Below are positions 2,708 to 14,820 of a stretch of DNA of 64,000 nucleotides, piece after piece. Both the position numbers and the translations under genes were made by a program. The notes under the pieces are model-generated. The model ran no database searches. It saw nothing but the letters and a program-made list of their open reading frames with translations, and was not told the DNA's origin. Each line of letters opens with the position of its first letter. Position 1 is the first letter of the stretch. Source of the DNA: a virus; IMG/VR virus record IMGVR_UViG_3300044970_000539, positions 1 through 64,000 of that record; one strand, written 5' to 3'.

Positions 2708-3341
2708 TACAGATTTATTAAATACTCCATTGTTATGGATTAATAAGTACTTACAATCAAAACTAAGTGAGAGCCTAGGATATGTAACCCCGTTTTTTCC
2801 ACCTTCACCATTTAATCTTGACGACCTTACAGAAAAGTGGATGATACTAAATAATGTCAATACACCAGTAAGCAACGGTGTTGCCTGTACATGGGATAGA
2901 CTTATCAAGATGCAGAAGAACAAGTTTCCACACATAAAAAATGAACAGATATTATATTATTTTTATGGACTTGGAGAAGACTCAATCCCAACCATGATTC
3001 AAACACAGGAGGCTGTCTTGAGGCTTCTTGACCGTGGAGATGAGTCTGCTGAAGAGTTAAATGCCTGGTGTGCCAACCGAAAAGTACAGTTAGACGATGG
3101 AACTACCGTAGACAACATGTTCCTATTCCATAGTTTTAAGGTATACCAACTAGAAGAAACCAGAGACATTATTGACTTTGGAACAGCCCGCACCTATGGC
3201 GGTAACAAGATAATCATTGACTTTGAGTACCACCAGGCACCAGGACCGATAACCCCAGGTTTGTCAAATCAAGATCAGATGCTATATTCTGACTGGACTC
3301 CAGAGGCAAGACTCTCTGATGCAAACAAAATAGTTATATAA
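2700..3341 (+). CDS. Putative tail terminator/completion protein
   Basis: 213 residues, overlapping the previous gene by 8 nt. It lies immediately upstream of the tail tube gene, the usual place for a tail terminator. It has mixed alpha/beta content, no membrane segment and no recognised motif. Length is at the upper end for terminators. The gene ends just before an extended -10 promoter that would serve the tube gene. Confidence 0.5.
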   Translation: MANTDLLNTPLLWINKYLQSKLSESLGYVTPFFPPSPFNLDDLTEKWMILNNVNTPVSNGVACTWDRLIKMQKNKFPHIKNEQILYYFYGLGEDSIPTMIQTQEAVLRLLDRGDESAEELNAWCANRKVQLDDGTTVDNMFLFHSFKVYQLEETRDIIDFGTARTYGGNKIIIDFEYHQAPGPITPGLSNQDQMLYSDWTPEARLSDANKIVI

Positions 3342-4126: not shown

Positions 4127-4831
4127 ATGGCAACAAGAATATATAAGTCAGACATTATTACATTAATAGATGGCGAACAAATAGAGATTTATCCCTTAAA
4201 AATTAAATATCTTAGGGAGTTTATGGAGGCATTCCATTTAATTAAAGATGCTAAAAATGATCTTGAATCAATATCCTATTTGTCAGAGTGTGCAAGAATT
4301 GCTATGAAACAATATAAGCCAGAAATTTCTAAAACACTTGAAGATCTTGAAGATAATGTTGACCTTCCAACAATTTATAAGATAATTAATATTGGCGGGG
4401 GTATAAGTGTGAACGGTGAGATAGACGAACCAGTAAAAGAACAAGCACTAAAGAGTGAGTCCTCTGGAAGCGGATGGGATGAGTTAGATTTAGCAAAATT
4501 AGAGTCTGAGATATTTTTGCTGGGTATATGGAAAGATTATCAAGAATTAGAACTAAACATGTCAATGCCAGAGTTAGTTACAACAATTGGATCTATTAGA
4601 GATTTAGATTATCAAGAAAAGAAATTCCTTGCAGCAATTCAAGGGGTAGATTTAGATGGTGCAACAAATCAAGATAAAGGTCAAAAGGAGTGGGAAGACA
4701 TGAAGGCTAGGGTATTTAGTAAAGGTCAAACCAGCGATAGCAATGACGTATTGTCTTTACAGGGTGCTACTGCACAAAAGGTAGGGTTTGGAATAGGCAT
4801 GGGTCTTGATTACGAAGACCTAACAAAATAG
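4127..4831 (+). CDS. Tail assembly chaperone, long form (G-T-like in one frame)
   Basis: 234 residues. Residues 1-105 match the short chaperone downstream (shared pattern LIDG, PLKI..LR.FM..F, AM.QYKPE, DLPT.Y.II). Residues 115-234 form a second domain (WDELDLAKLESEIFLLGIWK, then KEWEDMKARVF) like the T extension usually reached by ribosomal frameshift. Here both domains are fused in a single frame. The protein would bind the tape measure during tail assembly. The start is leaderless. A G-run at 4397-4401 with a +1-frame TAA at 4404 is noted in findings. Confidence 0.75.
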   Translation: MATRIYKSDIITLIDGEQIEIYPLKIKYLREFMEAFHLIKDAKNDLESISYLSECARIAMKQYKPEISKTLEDLEDNVDLPTIYKIINIGGGISVNGEIDEPVKEQALKSESSGSGWDELDLAKLESEIFLLGIWKDYQELELNMSMPELVTTIGSIRDLDYQEKKFLAAIQGVDLDGATNQDKGQKEWEDMKARVFSKGQTSDSNDVLSLQGATAQKVGFGIGMGLDYEDLTK

Positions 4832-4873: not shown

Positions 4874-5203
4874 ATGACTACAACAGTTCATGAAGAAAAA
4901 ATAATTACCCTGATTGATGGAACAAAGATCAAGGTAAGACCTCTCAAGATCTCACTTTTACGTAAATTTATGAAGAAGTTTGAGGGCTTGGGGGCAGTCC
5001 AAAATGATAACGATAAGTCTATGACACTTTTAATTGAGTGCGTGGCAATCGCTATGGAGCAGTATAAGCCAGAGTTGGGGGAAAGCATTGAGAAACTTGA
5101 GGATGTAATTGATCTTCCTACGGTTTATTCAATCATTGAGGCAGCATCTGGAATTAATCTTTCAGATACCGCTTTACTTGCTTTAGCACAAGAAGAACTA
5201 TAA
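4874..5203 (+). CDS. Tail assembly chaperone, short form (G-like)
   Basis: 109 residues, clearly paralogous to the first domain of the preceding gene and lacking the second domain. In most long-tailed phages the short form is the unshifted product of one gene; here it is a separate gene with its own promoter and RBS. It lies 20 nt upstream of the tape measure gene, as expected for a chaperone. Confidence 0.75.
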   Translation: MTTTVHEEKIITLIDGTKIKVRPLKISLLRKFMKKFEGLGAVQNDNDKSMTLLIECVAIAMEQYKPELGESIEKLEDVIDLPTVYSIIEAASGINLSDTALLALAQEEL

Positions 5204-5223: not shown

Positions 5224-8200
5224 ATGGCTGGAGATACAAATAGCAATATTTTTATAAATATTGATACCTCACAAGCAATGACGCAACTGCGTCTACTTGA
5301 GAAGGAACTCACAGCCCTTAACCGTTCCTTAATTGTTGGAACAAAGGCTGCAGCAGCAGCCCAAGCAAAATACGCACAATCTCTTCTACACAATGTAAAT
5401 GCCACTGGTCAGTGGACAGCATCAATGACAAGAATGAGCACTGCCTCTGAGCAGTTTGCTACAAACCTAGATAGACAAAGATTATCACTTAAAGAATACT
5501 TTAGATATGGTGCAGCATCTACCAAAACTTTTGGAAAGTTTTTTGGTCGTGAATTTGACACCATTGGAAAACTTGTAGACAAGCGTGTAAAGACTTTACA
5601 GCAACAGTATGTTCAATTAGGACGTGATGCTCAAGGCGCAATGAACGCCATGAAGTTTACTCCAAAGTCCCTGAACATGCAAAATTTAACTACCCAGTTA
5701 ATGATGGCAACACAAAAACAACAAATATTAAATAAACTTATTGATGATGGTTCAACAAAACTATTAAACTTTGGTAAGAATACTCAGTGGGCAGGCCGCC
5801 AACTTATGGTTGGTTTTACAATTCCACTTATGCTTTTTGGCGCTCAAGCAATTAAAACATTTAAGGAAATTGAAACACAAACAATTAGATTTAAAAAAGT
5901 TTATGGAGATATCTTTACAGACCAAGGAGCAACAAACGCTGCTTTAAAGAATATTCGTGATCTTGCTGATGAGTATACTAAGTATGGTCTTACAGTTGCT
6001 GACACAATTAAGATGGCTGCAGATGCTGCAGCAGCAGGTTTTTCTGGTAAGGGATTAGAAAACCTTGTAGAGCAAACAAATAAACTTGCAGTACTTGGTG
6101 GAGTTACACAAGAAAAGGCATTAGAAACAACAATTGCATTAAAGAACGCATTCCAGATAGATACTGGAGCAATGGCTGGAACAATTGATTTCCTTAACGC
6201 AGTTGAAAACCAAACTGTTGTAGCACTTGATGATTTAACAGAAGCAATTCCAAAGGTTGCTCCAGTTATTCAGCAACTTGGAGGAGATGTAAAAGATCTT
6301 GCATATTTTATGGCTGCAATGCAAGAAGGTGGAATTTCTGCAGCACAAGGTGCTAACGCCCTTAAGTCTGGCCTTGCATCTTTAATTAATCCAAGTAACG
6401 CTGCATCAAAGGCTGCAGCAGCCGTTGGAATTAATATCAAGGGAATTGTTGAAGCAAATGCTGGTAACTTAAGAAATACTGTAACTGGATTTGCAAAAGC
6501 ATTACAACCATTAACAGATCTAGAAAAAGCAAGAGTAATTGAAAAGGTTTTTGGTAAGTATCAGTTTGCTAGAATCTCTGCACTTTTAAATAACATAGGA
6601 AGAGAAGGAACACAGGCTGCTCGTGTACTTCAATTAACCAATGCATCTGTTGAAGAACTTGCAATCTTAAGTCAACGAGAATTAAAGGTTCAAGCCGATT
6701 CACCAATGAACAAATTAGCATCATCAGTAGAAAAATTTAAAGCATCTATTGCTCCAATTGGAGAATTATTTGCTAAGGTATTTACTCCAGTAATTGAGTT
6801 TATTGCAAGAATGGCAGAAAAATTTAATAACCTTCCAGATGGAATAAAGAAGGCTATTGGAATTATTACTGTTGTAGTTGGAGGCCTAGGACCTATATTC
6901 TTAATGACATTTGGTTTACTTGCAAATGCTGTTGCAAACTCAGTTAAGGGTGTTCAGATTCTTCGTAAAGGATATCAGCAACTTGCAGCGGGATCAACTG
7001 ATGCAGCATTAAAGACACAGTATTTATCACAAGAAGAATTAGAAAACATATCTATTAGCAATGCCCTTTACTCTAAGCATCAACAACTCTCTGCAGCATA
7101 TGCTCTAGAGGCATCTGCTCTAACATCTTTAACAAGTGTATACACCAAGGCCAACGCATCTATGGGAGCCTTTGCAGCAAGTAACCCAGGAATGTTTATG
7201 CCTAGAGGCGGAGTTCTACTTCCTAAGAAATTTGCGGGAGGAACAACATCTGTACCAGGACCAAAGGGAGCAGGAGACGTAGTTCCAGCAATGCTTTCTC
7301 CTGGAGAGTCTGTTATTCCAACAAAGCAAACACAAAAGTATGCAGGGTTTATTAATCAGATTATTCAAGATAAGGTTCCAGGTTTTATAACTGGAACTAC
7401 TGGCGTTGCTGTAACACGGGCTGCTGCAACACGGGCTGCATCAACAAGAGGTGCTGTTAGTTCATCCCTTGCTCCAGTCGTTGATATTTCTTCTGGACTT
7501 AGAGGAATATCATTTGCTACAGAAGGAAATAGAGTTAAAGTTTCTGTTGGAGGTAAATTCTTCTACATTCCTGCAGGTAAAAAAGATTATGTTCAAAGCA
7601 AACTTAAAGAAAATGAAGAATGGCTAAGGTCTAAAGGGCGAACAGATACCACAGAAGAAAATCTTCTTCATGCAATTATAAGAAAAAATCTTGGTGGACA
7701 AAATGTTACTAGTGTAGCCAAGTTAATAGCAGGAAACCTTCCTAAATTTCAAGCAGGAAGAAACCGTCGTGTCCCACAACAAGTTAAGTCTTTAAGAGCA
7801 AAATATCAAAATTCACCAATTTATAAAGAACTTGTTTCCACACATAAACAAGAAATTGAAGAGTTAAAGTTACTTGCAAACACTAAAGATAACCCATATG
7901 GAATAACACAAGCAGACCTTGATGCTGTTAAAAAAGTTCAAGCAGCAAGGGCTGAAAAGTTTGAATATACTCCAGCATTTAGTCATAGATTTACAGATAG
8001 ACAGGTAGATGAGTTACCAGGATTAACTCAATATAAAAGAAATGCCCCAAGCAATGTATTTGAAGAACAAGGATTTTTTAATACATTTTTTCAAAACATT
8101 TCAGGAACATCTCTTGGTGGAATGCACATATCAAAAAGAGCACAAGCAGAGGCTGCTCGTAGATTTATTTTAGATATACCAGCATCTCAAAGAACATCAG

Positions 8201-11200
8201 TTCAAAAAGCAGTTCACGCAACACTAGATAGAAGACTTGCTAGTGGCTACTATGAAAAGTTTGGTTCAAAAACAAATCAACTGTCATTGTTGCAAGATGC
8301 TGGCTTAAGCAATGAAAAAATAAAATCTTTCAAAAGATTTAGACCAAAAGATGAAGAACTTCCAGGATTTGCTGGTGGAGTAGTTTCACTTGGAATGCCA
8401 ATACCATTTAAGGTTATTGCAAAAAATAGAGCAGCGGCTCAACAGATAGATGCTCGTGTAAGATCAAGTAAGTTTAAAGATACTCCACCAACAAACTTTG
8501 GAGTAAGGTTAGAAGAATTTACAGGTCACAGTTTTCCAATCCCAGGCGTTGGAGGGGTTTACAGAAAACCAAATGGACAAGTTGTTGTTGTTAAGCCAGT
8601 TCTTAATGAAAAGGCAGCGTTAGCAGAACAAAGAGGAACAGTAATTACTAGAGGGGCGTTCCCAGAACTAGACGCTCCAGAACAAACAATTAGAACAATG
8701 GTTGATCCAACAGACTTAACTGGTAAGCGTAAATTTATTGTCCTTGAATCTCCATACAATCCAAAATTTGCAACTGGAGGAACTAAGTTCTCTAAGGAAG
8801 AATACTTTTCACAACTTCTTGCTTCAACAGTAAGAGGAGACAAAGACTTATCTCCTTCAAACGTGTTTGGACCAAACGTAGCAGATCAAGGTGCCTCTGG
8901 AGTATTCGGTTCGGCTTCAGGACAAAGAGAATTTAAATTCAACATGCCATCTCTAGAAGAGCAGGCAATGATCAATCTTCTTGGAGTCAAGGGTGGTGCT
9001 AGAAAAGCATTTGCTGAAAATACTGCTGATATAGCAAGATCTATGACACCACAGCAATATCAAGATGCAATGATTGCTGAGATTAATGCGACTATCCCAA
9101 GATTAGAAAAGACTATTGCTTCTCTTGGGTTAACAACAGGAGTTGAAAAAATTGTATATCAAAGAATGGTTGATAGACTTAAGGCTGGGTTAGGTGTTGA
9201 TTGGACTAAGTTACACGCAGTTCACTCTAAGGTAAAGGCTCCTCTTGAATTAGCAGAAGGCATTGTTTCAGTACCTGGTCCAAAGGGTGCTGGAGATATT
9301 CAACCTGCAATGCTTTCTCCAGGAGAGGCAGTAATTCCTGCAAAGCAATCTGAAAAGTATATGCCACTTATTCGTTCAATGATTGCTGATAATGTTCCTG
9401 GGTTTGCAGAGTCAAATGTTAGTTGGGATGGCTACCCAGCATCACTAAAAGAAGGTGGAAAGTATGCAGGACCAGTTACTCCTGTATATCCACCAGGATA
9501 TGATGCTTTCGGCAAAATACAAGAGCCTACTTCATCTGGAGGAAGAGTAAGAAATGCTGCTACTTCATTAATTACAGATAAAGGAATGAGGTCAATCACA
9601 AACTTTGCAACAGAAACAGCAAGGGCTGCAAGACAGTCAAGACTAGCATCCAACGCACTTGAAGGTGTAAAGAACGCTGGATCAAAAGTTAAAGCATCTT
9701 TTGTTTCTACTACAACAGCAGTAGACGCTGCAGCAGATAGTACAGTAAAAAATACTCAAGTTGCATCAACAATGACCAAAGAAGAGTTAAAAAATGCTCG
9801 TCAGTTAAAGCAGATGAACAACATGGGCAAGAACATGGGTATTGGAATGGCTGCCTCTATGCTTCCTATGATGGGTATGGCACAGGCTTCTACAAATCCC
9901 GAAGGGATGATGGCAAGAAACATGAGCACTCTAAGTGGAGTTGCCATGTTAGCAATGATTGCCCCAATGTTAAATACACCACTAAAACTTCTTGCAGGAG
10001 TTGCTTTAGGATACGCTGCTATATTAAAGATGCAGTCTGCACAAATTAAAAAGGCAATAATAGAAGGCAACAAACTTGCTGAGTCATTCTCTATGACAAC
10101 TAAAAAGTTAGAAGAGTTTGGATCAATAACTGGGGAAGTATCAATTACTCAAGAGTATGAGCAGAAAAGGTTGGGAAGAACAACTGTATCTGGTGTTGTA
10201 AACCAAGAGTTTGGAACAAGTTTTCTTTCATCTGAACCTGGTAAAAAGTTTAAAGATGATTTTACAAAACTTTCACAACAATATGAAACTGCTGTTGCGG
10301 GACAAATTGCTACTGCACAACTTGCATCTGCAGTAAATCAAGGAGTATTGTCTTATCTACAGGCAGAATCAATTATTACAAAGATGGCAAGAGATCTAAA
10401 GGATCCAACTTTAGAGTACCAGATGCAAGGTCAGTTAATGAAGATTCTTGGTCCAGATGGACAAGACCTTGCAAGAGATCCACTAAAGGTTCAACTTGAA
10501 TTAGTAAGGGCAAATCAAACAGGATTTAACACTGCAGCACAAAATTTCCAAGATGTAGGGTCTGCTCAGTTAGGATTACCAAGTAGGGGAGAAGTAGGAG
10601 GTCTTGCTGCTGGCGCTACCGCTGGTGGCTTAATCGCAGCAAAAGCATACAGTTCATCTTTGATGGCAGTTGCTGCTCAGGCTCAACTTGCAGGTACTGC
10701 AGTTACTGGAATGTCAGCAACACTGTCTGCAATTCCTGTAGGAAGACTTATAGCAGCAGGTGCTGCAATAGGAACTATTGCAACAAGAATATTTCAAAAA
10801 GGAAAAGAACAAGAAGCAATTGGAGCAGCAGCAGGACTGCTACAGGGAGTTGCAGCACAAAACTTTGCAGCAATTCAGCAATCTGCTGATGCCCTAAACT
10901 ATCAGTATGATGTTCAAATAGCAAACCTTTCTATTGAAAAAGATAGAACAAAAAACCTAGAACAAATTAAAAAACTTAATGAACAAATTGCAGAACTTGA
11001 GACTAAAAGAAGTATAGGGTTAGATAAACTTGCTCAATCTCAATTAGACACTATAAATTCATATATTGAAGTTGTAAGAAATTATAAGAACGATACAGAA
11101 GGGTTTGGTCAAAATCTTACAGAAGCACTTACTGAGCCATCTACTGTTCTTAATGCGCTGCCATTCTTTACTTCTAAAGATCAAAAGATGTATAACAAGG

Positions 11201-14200
11201 CTATGGATGCAGCAATTCTTGGAATGCAAGAGGCCTGGGACAACAGCATAGGTGCAAAACTTCTTGGAACACAACTAGAAGGTATGGACATCGAAGATGT
11301 AATTAGAATATCACTTCTAGTTGAATCAAAGACAGTATCTCCAGAACAAATGTTGCTTCTTAAAGATGTTGTTGAAAGAAATGGTAAAGATTTAGATCAA
11401 GTTATTAGGGTTACATTAGAAAATACTGATCCAGAGACTTTTGCAAGAATTTCAACACTTCTTGGAAGGTTTGAAACGCCTACAAAGCAGCAGGGATTCC
11501 AAAACCTAACAGATAGATTAATGGGTGATCCAGCAAAACTTAAGAACGTTCTTACAGCACTTGAAGAATATTCTAAGGCTCCAGATGAAGTTCCAGTTGT
11601 TATGGGAATGGAAATTGATCAAAGTGATATTGATGACCTTGCTAAATTTGGAAAAGAAATTGACGGAATTAAAAAGAGATTCCCTAAAGGCCAGTTTGAT
11701 ATTAAGTTGTTGCAAAAGTATCAAACAGAACTTGCTGGTGCTGGACTCCCATCTAATGCTACCTTAGATTATGTTATAAGCAATATTGATTATTTTATGG
11801 AGTTACCTGCAGAAAAAAGATTTGAAGCAATATTTGCTTTTAAAATGTTAAAAGATGCAGACTCAGTTAAGGCAGATATTGAAAGAACCTTGCAAATAGG
11901 ATTTATGAAAAAGCAAGCGGTAACAGGTGCAAACACAGTATTAAAAGCAACAGACCCGCTTTCTATTGCTGCTCAAAAACAATTTGAAGCATGGAGAAAA
12001 TCTACCGAAGGTGTAAAGGCTTATACTGCTGCTCTTAAGAAGATGGGTCTTGACTGGAAGGGTACTGGGCTAGACGAAGATGATGAAGATGGTGGTCCTA
12101 TAAGTGATCTAACTAAGGGACCAACAAAAGATATGTCTTGGCTTAATGATCTTGGCCAAAGACTTAAGTTAGTTAAGGAAAGTGCATTTAATGCACTTGA
12201 TCCTTTAGGATCTTTAAAAGAATTTCTTGATAAGGGCGGTAAGAAGTCAGTAAACCCAGGACTTGGCGAACAAGACGGAGCAATTAAAAGAATAGAAGAA
12301 GCAGCAAAAAAGTATAAGGATGCTGCTGGAAATATTGGTATAGCCATAGATAAAGACTTCATGGATGTTATTAGAGGTCTAGATGCAGAACAGTTTAAGT
12401 TATGGTCAGATACCTTGTTTAAGGTTGGTAAAGATAGTAAACAAATTTATGCGCTAACAGAAGTTTTTGCTACTATTAACGAAGGATTCCGTGTAGCAAC
12501 CATTGGTGGATTTATTCAAAATGTAAAAGATTCAAGCAAAGAAATTGAAAATCAAGTTAATGCTTATAATATTTTATCTAATGCTCGTGATGAAGACAAT
12601 AAACTAATGTATAACTCACTTGAAATTCAAAAGATATTACAGAACGCAACACTGGCTGCAAAGATTGCAGCACAGGGTGGACTGAAAGCCACCAAGCAAG
12701 AGCAAGAAGAGTTAAATAAAGAAATACAAAAAACTATTGATCTTAACTATGAATTAAGCACAATAAAACTTAATGACAACATTGCAGAAACAAAGATGCA
12801 GGTTGAAGCATTTAAGAGGCTTACTGCTGCTGGTGTAAAACATGAAGTTATTCTTGAAATATTAAAAGATAAAAATAACTCTTGGGCTATTGGCTCTGCT
12901 GATGCAACGGTAAATGTTAAAGATAAGTTCGGTGATTTAATAAATAAGACCAAGGAATATTCTGATATTCTTGAGTTAATTGCAAATCAAACAAAAACTT
13001 TTGAACAAAAAACACAAGATGCTATTGATGCAAATATTGCTGCACTTGACCTACAGGCTAAGACATTACAAAATGCTTTTGACATTAAAAACTTTGATCT
13101 TAAAGCAAAAATTACTTTAACAGAAAATGCTATTAAAGATATAAATGATGATATTCAAAAAGAACAAGATAAAATTGATAAAATTAATTTTGAACTTAAG
13201 TATGATTCAAAGATTGGTCAAAACCTTCTTGATGATATTCAGGAAAACATTAATGATGCCCAAAGAAAGATGGAGTTTGATTTTGATAGACCACTACAGG
13301 CATTGTCTGATAGATCAGCGGTATTATCAAATGACCTAACGTTAATTGATAAGGCTACAGAAGCAATCAATGAAAAGTACGATAAGCAAGAAGAAGCCTT
13401 ACGTACAATTTTTGAACTAAATCAAGATATTGCTGCACAAGAGCAAAGAAGAATTTCTCTTGCAGATGCGCTTTCTCAAGGTGATATCTCAGCAGCAGCA
13501 CAACTAGCAAATGAGATGCGCTCTACTGCAGCAGAAGCAGCAAGCCGTACATCTGGAGACTTTATCACAGCAGCAAGAAAGGCTGAAACAGAAGGCTTAG
13601 TATCTGCAAGTGGTATGACAAGAGCACAAATTGAGGCAGAACAGTTTAGAATTGGTCAGCAGTCTTATGCTCTTGAACTACAAAGAAAGACTGCTCAAGA
13701 AGCAATTCTTAAATTAGAAGATCAAGTTTATGATATAACAGAATTAAGAGAAGTAAAACTCTTAGCAATTAGAGATATTGAAACTGTAATTGATGGTATT
13801 AAGAAATACCAACTTGATAAGGCACAAGAAGAACTAGATCGAGATCAGAAAACACTTGAGGCTCAACAAAGAATACTTGATGCAAAACTTCTTGCAATTG
13901 ATAAAGAAAAACTAGGTTGGGAATCTATCCAGATTCAACTTAATGCTTATACACTTAAGTTAGATGAAATTAATAAGGGTCCACTTAAGAGCATGAAAGA
14001 TATAGTTGATTCAATTGCTGCAGCCCTTTCACAAATTAATAACGCAAAGTATTCACCAACAAGTGCATTTATTCCAGCAGCAACAGATACGACTACAGTT
14101 CTAACACCTGCACAGGTAACAGCAGCAACTGATGCAGCAAACGCAGCAGCAATCGCAGCAGATGCAGCAAACGCAGCAGCAGAAGCCACTGCAGCAGCGC

Positions 14201-14820
14201 AAGCAGCAGCCCAGGCAAAGGCTGACGCTGAAGCAGCAGCAACAAGTGCAGCACTAAAGAAAGCAATAGAAGATGCAAAGAAAGCAATCGCAGATGCAGC
14301 AAAGTCAGGAGACTCAGCATCTAAAGCCTACATTGCTCAACAAAAAGCAGAAGAAGAAAGACTTGCAGCCATTGCAAAACAAAATGCACAGTGGGTTGCG
14401 AAGGTAGCAGCAATGCAGGCAGCAGCAAACGCAGCAGCAGGCACAGCAGCATCTGCCTCTACCACAGTTTCTTCAGGTGGTGGAAGCGGTGGTGGTGGAA
14501 GATTTGGAATGATGGCACTTTCTTCTGGAGGAATGGTCAGACCTAAGTATTTTGCGGTAGGTGGAAAAGCAAGGGGTACAGACATTATTCCAGCAATGCT
14601 CACCCCTGGAGAATTTGTAATGAGTAAGTATGCCGTTGACTCATATGGTGTTGATAAAATGAAGGCTATCAATAGCGGATCATACGAAGGCGAGAAGGTG
14701 TATAATTATAATCTAAACGTCAATGTTAAGTCTGATGCAAATCCAGAGGATATTGCAAGAGTCGTTATGACACAAATTAGACAAGTTGACTCACAGAGAA
14801 TTAGGACACAGAGGGGCTAA
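5224..14820 (+). CDS. Tape measure protein
   Basis: 3198 residues, the longest gene here, lying between chaperone and distal tail genes. The N-terminus has long amphipathic helices. Hydrophobic segments occur near residues 540-570, 1570-1610 and 1795-1860. Heptad-like coils occur near 1910-1945 and 2620-2900, and an Ala/Gln-rich stretch plus a Gly-rich linker near 2965-3090. A motif around AMLSPGE/AMLTPGE recurs three times (about residues 669-705, 1343-1378 and 3110-3138). Between the first two copies is an inserted segment with kinase-like features (see findings). At about 0.15 nm per residue it would set a tail of up to about 480 nm, less if the inserted domains do not stretch. Confidence 0.95.
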   Translation: MAGDTNSNIFINIDTSQAMTQLRLLEKELTALNRSLIVGTKAAAAAQAKYAQSLLHNVNATGQWTASMTRMSTASEQFATNLDRQRLSLKEYFRYGAASTKTFGKFFGREFDTIGKLVDKRVKTLQQQYVQLGRDAQGAMNAMKFTPKSLNMQNLTTQLMMATQKQQILNKLIDDGSTKLLNFGKNTQWAGRQLMVGFTIPLMLFGAQAIKTFKEIETQTIRFKKVYGDIFTDQGATNAALKNIRDLADEYTKYGLTVADTIKMAADAAAAGFSGKGLENLVEQTNKLAVLGGVTQEKALETTIALKNAFQIDTGAMAGTIDFLNAVENQTVVALDDLTEAIPKVAPVIQQLGGDVKDLAYFMAAMQEGGISAAQGANALKSGLASLINPSNAASKAAAAVGINIKGIVEANAGNLRNTVTGFAKALQPLTDLEKARVIEKVFGKYQFARISALLNNIGREGTQAARVLQLTNASVEELAILSQRELKVQADSPMNKLASSVEKFKASIAPIGELFAKVFTPVIEFIARMAEKFNNLPDGIKKAIGIITVVVGGLGPIFLMTFGLLANAVANSVKGVQILRKGYQQLAAGSTDAALKTQYLSQEELENISISNALYSKHQQLSAAYALEASALTSLTSVYTKANASMGAFAASNPGMFMPRGGVLLPKKFAGGTTSVPGPKGAGDVVPAMLSPGESVIPTKQTQKYAGFINQIIQDKVPGFITGTTGVAVTRAAATRAASTRGAVSSSLAPVVDISSGLRGISFATEGNRVKVSVGGKFFYIPAGKKDYVQSKLKENEEWLRSKGRTDTTEENLLHAIIRKNLGGQNVTSVAKLIAGNLPKFQAGRNRRVPQQVKSLRAKYQNSPIYKELVSTHKQEIEELKLLANTKDNPYGITQADLDAVKKVQAARAEKFEYTPAFSHRFTDRQVDELPGLTQYKRNAPSNVFEEQGFFNTFFQNISGTSLGGMHISKRAQAEAARRFILDIPASQRTSVQKAVHATLDRRLASGYYEKFGSKTNQLSLLQDAGLSNEKIKSFKRFRPKDEELPGFAGGVVSLGMPIPFKVIAKNRAAAQQIDARVRSSKFKDTPPTNFGVRLEEFTGHSFPIPGVGGVYRKPNGQVVVVKPVLNEKAALAEQRGTVITRGAFPELDAPEQTIRTMVDPTDLTGKRKFIVLESPYNPKFATGGTKFSKEEYFSQLLASTVRGDKDLSPSNVFGPNVADQGASGVFGSASGQREFKFNMPSLEEQAMINLLGVKGGARKAFAENTADIARSMTPQQYQDAMIAEINATIPRLEKTIASLGLTTGVEKIVYQRMVDRLKAGLGVDWTKLHAVHSKVKAPLELAEGIVSVPGPKGAGDIQPAMLSPGEAVIPAKQSEKYMPLIRSMIADNVPGFAESNVSWDGYPASLKEGGKYAGPVTPVYPPGYDAFGKIQEPTSSGGRVRNAATSLITDKGMRSITNFATETARAARQSRLASNALEGVKNAGSKVKASFVSTTTAVDAAADSTVKNTQVASTMTKEELKNARQLKQMNNMGKNMGIGMAASMLPMMGMAQASTNPEGMMARNMSTLSGVAMLAMIAPMLNTPLKLLAGVALGYAAILKMQSAQIKKAIIEGNKLAESFSMTTKKLEEFGSITGEVSITQEYEQKRLGRTTVSGVVNQEFGTSFLSSEPGKKFKDDFTKLSQQYETAVAGQIATAQLASAVNQGVLSYLQAESIITKMARDLKDPTLEYQMQGQLMKILGPDGQDLARDPLKVQLELVRANQTGFNTAAQNFQDVGSAQLGLPSRGEVGGLAAGATAGGLIAAKAYSSSLMAVAAQAQLAGTAVTGMSATLSAIPVGRLIAAGAAIGTIATRIFQKGKEQEAIGAAAGLLQGVAAQNFAAIQQSADALNYQYDVQIANLSIEKDRTKNLEQIKKLNEQIAELETKRSIGLDKLAQSQLDTINSYIEVVRNYKNDTEGFGQNLTEALTEPSTVLNALPFFTSKDQKMYNKAMDAAILGMQEAWDNSIGAKLLGTQLEGMDIEDVIRISLLVESKTVSPEQMLLLKDVVERNGKDLDQVIRVTLENTDPETFARISTLLGRFETPTKQQGFQNLTDRLMGDPAKLKNVLTALEEYSKAPDEVPVVMGMEIDQSDIDDLAKFGKEIDGIKKRFPKGQFDIKLLQKYQTELAGAGLPSNATLDYVISNIDYFMELPAEKRFEAIFAFKMLKDADSVKADIERTLQIGFMKKQAVTGANTVLKATDPLSIAAQKQFEAWRKSTEGVKAYTAALKKMGLDWKGTGLDEDDEDGGPISDLTKGPTKDMSWLNDLGQRLKLVKESAFNALDPLGSLKEFLDKGGKKSVNPGLGEQDGAIKRIEEAAKKYKDAAGNIGIAIDKDFMDVIRGLDAEQFKLWSDTLFKVGKDSKQIYALTEVFATINEGFRVATIGGFIQNVKDSSKEIENQVNAYNILSNARDEDNKLMYNSLEIQKILQNATLAAKIAAQGGLKATKQEQEELNKEIQKTIDLNYELSTIKLNDNIAETKMQVEAFKRLTAAGVKHEVILEILKDKNNSWAIGSADATVNVKDKFGDLINKTKEYSDILELIANQTKTFEQKTQDAIDANIAALDLQAKTLQNAFDIKNFDLKAKITLTENAIKDINDDIQKEQDKIDKINFELKYDSKIGQNLLDDIQENINDAQRKMEFDFDRPLQALSDRSAVLSNDLTLIDKATEAINEKYDKQEEALRTIFELNQDIAAQEQRRISLADALSQGDISAAAQLANEMRSTAAEAASRTSGDFITAARKAETEGLVSASGMTRAQIEAEQFRIGQQSYALELQRKTAQEAILKLEDQVYDITELREVKLLAIRDIETVIDGIKKYQLDKAQEELDRDQKTLEAQQRILDAKLLAIDKEKLGWESIQIQLNAYTLKLDEINKGPLKSMKDIVDSIAAALSQINNAKYSPTSAFIPAATDTTTVLTPAQVTAATDAANAAAIAADAANAAAEATAAAQAAAQAKADAEAAATSAALKKAIEDAKKAIADAAKSGDSASKAYIAQQKAEEERLAAIAKQNAQWVAKVAAMQAAANAAAGTAASASTTVSSGGGSGGGGRFGMMALSSGGMVRPKYFAVGGKARGTDIIPAMLTPGEFVMSKYAVDSYGVDKMKAINSGSYEGEKVYNYNLNVNVKSDANPEDIARVVMTQIRQVDSQRIRTQRG

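Follow-up and report, generated by a model that had tools for sequence, protein, structure and literature searches.

An optional kinase-like domain predicted within the tape measure protein of a freshwater bacteriophage

The tape measure protein (TMP) of a virus of bacteria from a freshwater habitat contains a kinase-like domain (residues ~1085-1345; 8476..9258, + strand), which keeps its predicted catalytic residues in 116 distinct sequences, is present in some related TMPs and absent from others, and appears to have been exchanged between phages as a cassette. The DNA analysed, hereafter the window, is a stretch of 64,000 nucleotides (positions 1 to 64,000 of IMG/VR record IMGVR_UViG_3300044970_000539), and is part of a virus record of 105,135 bases in full. 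The explanation we consider probable as a whole is that the domain is an optional, host-directed phosphotransferase, which would be delivered with the tail. A first-pass annotation had proposed a kinase-like domain within this TMP, and the predicted fold is indeed kinase-like in both the structural model and the fold search; the wider boundaries, the identification of D1208 as the predicted catalytic aspartate, the finding that key residues do not vary in 116 sequences, the optional, cassette-like behaviour and the repeated modules described below are new.

The 3198-residue product of the open reading frame at 5224..14820 (+) carries PhageMin_Tail (PF10145) at residues 247-444, with an E value of 3.2e-27 in the Pfam search, and matches phrog_10030, tail length tape measure protein, with an E value of 4.2e-86 in the PHROGs search; its conserved N-terminal domain, its great length and its position after tail assembly chaperone-like genes are those of a TMP. 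TMP length sets tail length, and in well-studied phages it is established that these proteins line the tail tube and exit with the DNA. Directly upstream of the TMP gene there are two short paralogous ORFs, at 4127-4831 (MATRIYKSDIITLIDGEQIEI...) and 4874-5203 (MTTTVHEEKIITLIDGTKIKV...) of the window, in the position that is usual for tail assembly chaperones.

The structure of residues 1040-1350 was modelled with AlphaFold2 from a 47-sequence alignment, yielding a mean pLDDT of 84.8, with values below 50 only at both ends, and a pTM of 0.81. In the model, an N-lobe of three strands, the third containing K1124, is followed by a helix with E1135 and by two strands ending near E1175; then come a long helix, the D1208-N1213 loop, a short strand pair, D1221 and a helical C-lobe, with helices at model residues 205-214, 223-233, 237-260, 267-285 and 288-295. 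These are the features of the kinase fold at the superfamily level, namely a lysine in beta3, a glutamate in alphaC, a D....N loop, a metal-binding aspartate and a helical C-lobe. The domain had been placed at 8440-8960; this extent was too small, the domain reaching from ~8476 to 9258 and including the helical C-lobe past the catalytic loop.

A Foldseek search of the PDB returned CtkA as the top match (E 4.6e-4, probability 1.00), and each of the best 50 matches listed was an entry or complex with a kinase fold, HipA and PI4KII included; of those listed, only one reached E < 1e-3. TM-scores against solved kinases were modest (0.2-0.4), with large rmsd, and the likeness is thus one of fold, without tight superposition of the lobes. 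Among viral models, the best match (E 1.2e-5) was a phage protein whose name refers to a PI3/4-kinase catalytic domain, and gp13 of HHTV-1 and gp16 of HSTV-2 were also listed, their matches being tied to the genes by length and virus. A second query, the model of the neighbouring insert 1 described below, gave no significant match, indicating that the library does not return kinases indiscriminately. Judging from the predicted model, residues ~1085-1345 almost certainly have a kinase fold.

The peptides from which the domain had been recognized (GGVYRKPNGQVVVVKP, RGDKDLSPSNVF and VADQGASG) all occur in the 5224-14820 (+) ORF at the residue numbers given for them. K1124 (8593..8595), the predicted ATP-binding lysine, lies in strand beta3 (VVVKP; model strand 81-87); E1135 (8626..8628), its predicted salt-bridge partner, in helix alphaC (model helix 90-106); and E1175 (8746..8748) at the end of strand beta5, in the hinge region (model strand 131-138). 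The putative catalytic loop, G1205-N1213 (8836..8862), contains D1206 (8839-8841), D1208 (8845-8847) and N1213 (8860-8862), the last being a predicted metal ligand, whereas D1221 (8884..8886), which follows the short strand pair, is the predicted DFG-type metal-binding aspartate in a D-x-G-x-x-G-V-F motif; all these codons are on the + strand. In kinases, the catalytic aspartate sits five residues before the metal-binding asparagine. The proposed GD..P.N-type loop is borne out, but D1208, and not D1206, is predicted to be the catalytic residue, by the D(+5)N rule (D1208-N1213) and by a local alignment to HHTV-1 gp13. The spacing between N1213 and D1221, 8 residues, is shorter than usual for kinases, which counts against the kinase reading.

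Relatives are abundant in viral contigs: a single-sequence query retrieved 14 and an alignment query at least 286 confirmed matches, a number that marks this kinase-fold family, which has no name in Pfam, NCBIfam or PHROGs, as a common one. A degenerate-pattern scan of bacterial and archaeal genomes found no relatives, and neither did tblastn searches of 50,697 cultured phage records in which three members served as queries, the three matches at E=10 being due to chance. After removal of duplicates, 116 distinct domains were aligned, that of the window included; the cluster representatives were at least 41% identical to one another. K1124, R1204, D1206, D1208, N1213, D1221 and R1235 are identical in 116/116, and the lysine and the aspartates are thus retained in relatives, as had been proposed for a check; E1135 is kept in 114/116, with Q in the other 2, and E1175 in 115/116, with Q in 1. 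The bare motif D....N..D.G is present in 38% of shuffles of the TMP sequence. The complete series K-P..E..D....N..D.G occurs in 1.1%, which is only a rough guide, the pattern having been composed with the sequence already in view; the bare motif is weak on its own, and the domain is considered real because five of its residues are invariant across the 116 relatives. The domain is under purifying selection: in distant pairs its dN/dS is ~0.24-0.28, versus 0.49-0.65 in the TMP stretch downstream, although these values are rough, dS being near saturation. That the domain is a pseudokinase or a purely structural tail spacer is accordingly very unlikely; any insert into a protein whose length sets that of the tail would have a structural side effect, but a spacer has no need of K, D, N and D, which remain invariant while the surrounding TMP drifts.

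The segment belongs to no named family in Pfam, PHROGs, NCBIfam or PADLOC, with either single members or alignments as queries, and a PDB sequence search with profiles gave chance matches only. The resemblance to HipA-type kinases that had been suggested is found at the level of the fold, together with the PI3-4K/CtkA type, but not at that of sequence profiles: HipA_C (PF07804) gave no Pfam match in the domain or elsewhere in the genome, and hhalign against 12 HipA sequences gave no signal. The PI3/PI4 kinase family PF00454 likewise had no match in the domain or the genome. An ATP-grasp assignment, suggested by weak RimK-like and LarE matches, was dropped, since no such fold was among the best 50 PDB matches. 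V-K-P at beta3 is typical of HipA and PI4KII. The TMP domain shares this feature and the compact D....N loop with the CtkA, HipA and PI4KII kinases, CtkA being its best fold match; unlike them, it has a shorter N-to-D spacing, is embedded in a TMP and lacks a HipA profile match. Thus, according to the predicted structure, the domain represents a divergent kinase-fold family without a name in Pfam, NCBIfam or PHROGs.

Two archaeal viruses, HHTV-1 (gp13, L239:9436-12738) and HSTV-2 (gp16, L240:10647-12119), each have a PI3/4-kinase-like segment in a gene of the virion module whose annotation is hypothetical. The HHTV-1 gp13 peptide LTGNRDIHGGN (VLTGNRDIHGGN) aligns with the window loop LRGDKDLSPSN in a single hhalign comparison that is weak but in register (E 0.013), and HSTV-2 gp16 has a PF00454 match just below the cut-off. 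The position of D1206, an invariant aspartate in the TMP family, is occupied by asparagine in both archaeal virus proteins ('GNDDRHYGN' in gp16). The similarity is local only, and the genes are other than TMP genes, being located beside a Mu gpF-like gene or between capsid and tail genes.

Both the predicted fold and the order of the conserved residues suggest that the domain is likely to be a catalytically active phosphotransferase. A kinase fold with other chemistry in the host, such as SelO-like AMPylation or another ATP-dependent transfer, is unlikely: fold and ATP-site residues cannot separate such chemistries, and the sequence is distant from all named kinase families, but the canonical K-E-(hinge)-D....N-D order and the usual D(+5)N spacing are those of ordinary phosphotransferases.

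The kinase-like domain was found only inside TMPs. Complete ORFs with the domain (n=147, the number of distinct ones being smaller because some are repeat fetches of one contig) are all TMP-sized (1790-4268 aa); each locus has a single domain, which begins between residues 710 and 1362. When 80 TMPs were retrieved by their N-terminal region alone, the kinase was present in 23 and absent in 46, while 11 were too truncated to judge; in L247, one of the TMPs without it, the N-terminal query region is 93% identical to that of the window and the kinase domain is absent. Similarly, the cultured Streptomyces phages Yaboi and Coruscant, whose TMPs (2093 and 2133 aa) have related N-termini, lack the domain. 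The tree of the TMP N-terminal region contains at least 7 presence/absence changes, 3 of which are forced by well-supported branches, gain and loss being indistinguishable. In a codon comparison of the window with L002, dS was 0.11 in the kinase segment and 0.66-1.36 in the flanks; the kinase segment is thus far closer than its surroundings, pointing to exchange between phages, and the domain appears to move as a cassette.

The cargo region is framed by repeated modules, identified by regex and HMM scans, with the consensus SVPGPKGAGD..PAMLSPGE.VIP...VPGF and a looser form GPxGxGD..PAML(S/T)PGE(x)V; similar copies are found in most relatives. In the window, module A (residues ~670-721; 7231..7386, +; SVPGPKGAGDVVPAMLSPGESVIP...VPGF) is the first copy and has the cargo directly behind it, module B (residues ~1343-1395; 9250..9408, +) is the second and closes the cargo region, and the module scan revealed a more diverged C-terminal copy (residues ~3098-3152; 14515..14679, +). 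A first copy at residues ~665-722 is present in nearly all listed kinase-less TMPs and in many kinase-bearing ones; cargo follows it directly and often ends at a second copy.

Upstream of the kinase, presence and absence across TMPs define a second optional domain, insert 1 (residues ~735-1040; 7426..8343, +), with the conserved motifs SH, GG.H and R..(T/S)G(Y/F)Y. It is absent in many kinase-bearing TMPs, and homologues occur in 8 kinase-bearing TMPs and in TMPs without kinase. Insert 1 was also considered as a second enzyme; this was set aside, its AlphaFold2 model being poor (pLDDT 70) and the fold search giving no match. An automatic count, with untuned thresholds and near-duplicates kept, found between the first two modules the kinase without insert 1 in 56 TMPs (for some of which the C-terminal copy, and not a nearby one, was counted as the second module), insert 1 with the kinase in 14 and insert 1 alone in 8. 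Five representative relatives were searched for further cargo of a known kind, and PhageMin_Tail alone was above the cut-off. That closely related TMPs differ in having the kinase, and that another optional domain can occupy its slot, suggests a loading site of general use with swappable contents.

In the explanation we favour, an intact kinase-fold phosphotransferase of the compact HipA/PI3-4K/CtkA-like type would be optional cargo of the TMP, placed between repeated modules behind the conserved N-terminal part. It would be packed in the tail, enter the host envelope or cytoplasm together with the TMP at DNA entry, and fold there; it might then phosphorylate a host protein (a lipid or a small molecule being less likely), so that infection is established or defence blunted. 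A folded domain of ~30 kDa is not expected to fit the tail lumen, and it must therefore pass unfolded and fold later, or sit elsewhere. Carriage in the tail and action at entry are proposed by analogy with the TMP of mycobacteriophage TM4, whose embedded peptidoglycan-hydrolase motif aids infection (PMC1796659): both proteins contain an enzymatic module that is presumably used at entry, but in TM4 it is a cell-wall hydrolase and in the window it has a kinase-like fold. On this analogy, delivery to and action in the host are slightly favoured. Alternatively, the enzyme may act undelivered in the producing cell or the virion, for example by phosphorylating tail proteins at assembly; we regard this as rather unlikely. 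The many same-clade TMPs without the domain are compatible with an accessory role in assembly, but 46 of the 69 assessable TMPs, including L247 with its closely similar N-terminal region, do without it, which argues against an essential one, and cassette-like exchange would better suit an effector.

Kinases are also known as domains of the polyvalent proteins, large multidomain phage proteins for which host-protein targets have been proposed (Iyer et al. 2017, PMC5512222). Those kinases are described as having lost the C-terminal subdomain and as carrying an insertion that separates the catalytic His from the Asp (PMC5512222), whereas the window domain has a predicted helical C-lobe and a compact RGDKDLSPSN loop, a distinction drawn from the description in that paper and not from an alignment. 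In the literature searched, no earlier report of a kinase domain in a TMP was found; a kinase-annotated ORF of MinS1 was considered as a precedent and discarded, as it encodes a separate 95-aa protein and is not in the TMP.

If active and delivered, the domain would be a kinase-type enzyme borne by the TMP, where cell-wall hydrolases are known, and would offer a route for phage action on the host at the very start of infection. More tentatively, freshwater phages may possess a module-framed cargo bay in the TMP that swaps host-directed effectors, including a new kinase-fold family delivered before phage gene expression. Other contents of the loading site can now be searched directly.

Kinase-bearing TMPs of 35 loci (L062, L125 and 33 more) have a different stretch of 540-680 aa before the kinase, at TMP residues ~700-1300, in which a Pfam scan of three members (L062, L104 and L125) gave no match. 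In kinase-less TMPs, such as those of L247 and L244, diverged relatives of insert 1 are found alone between the modules.
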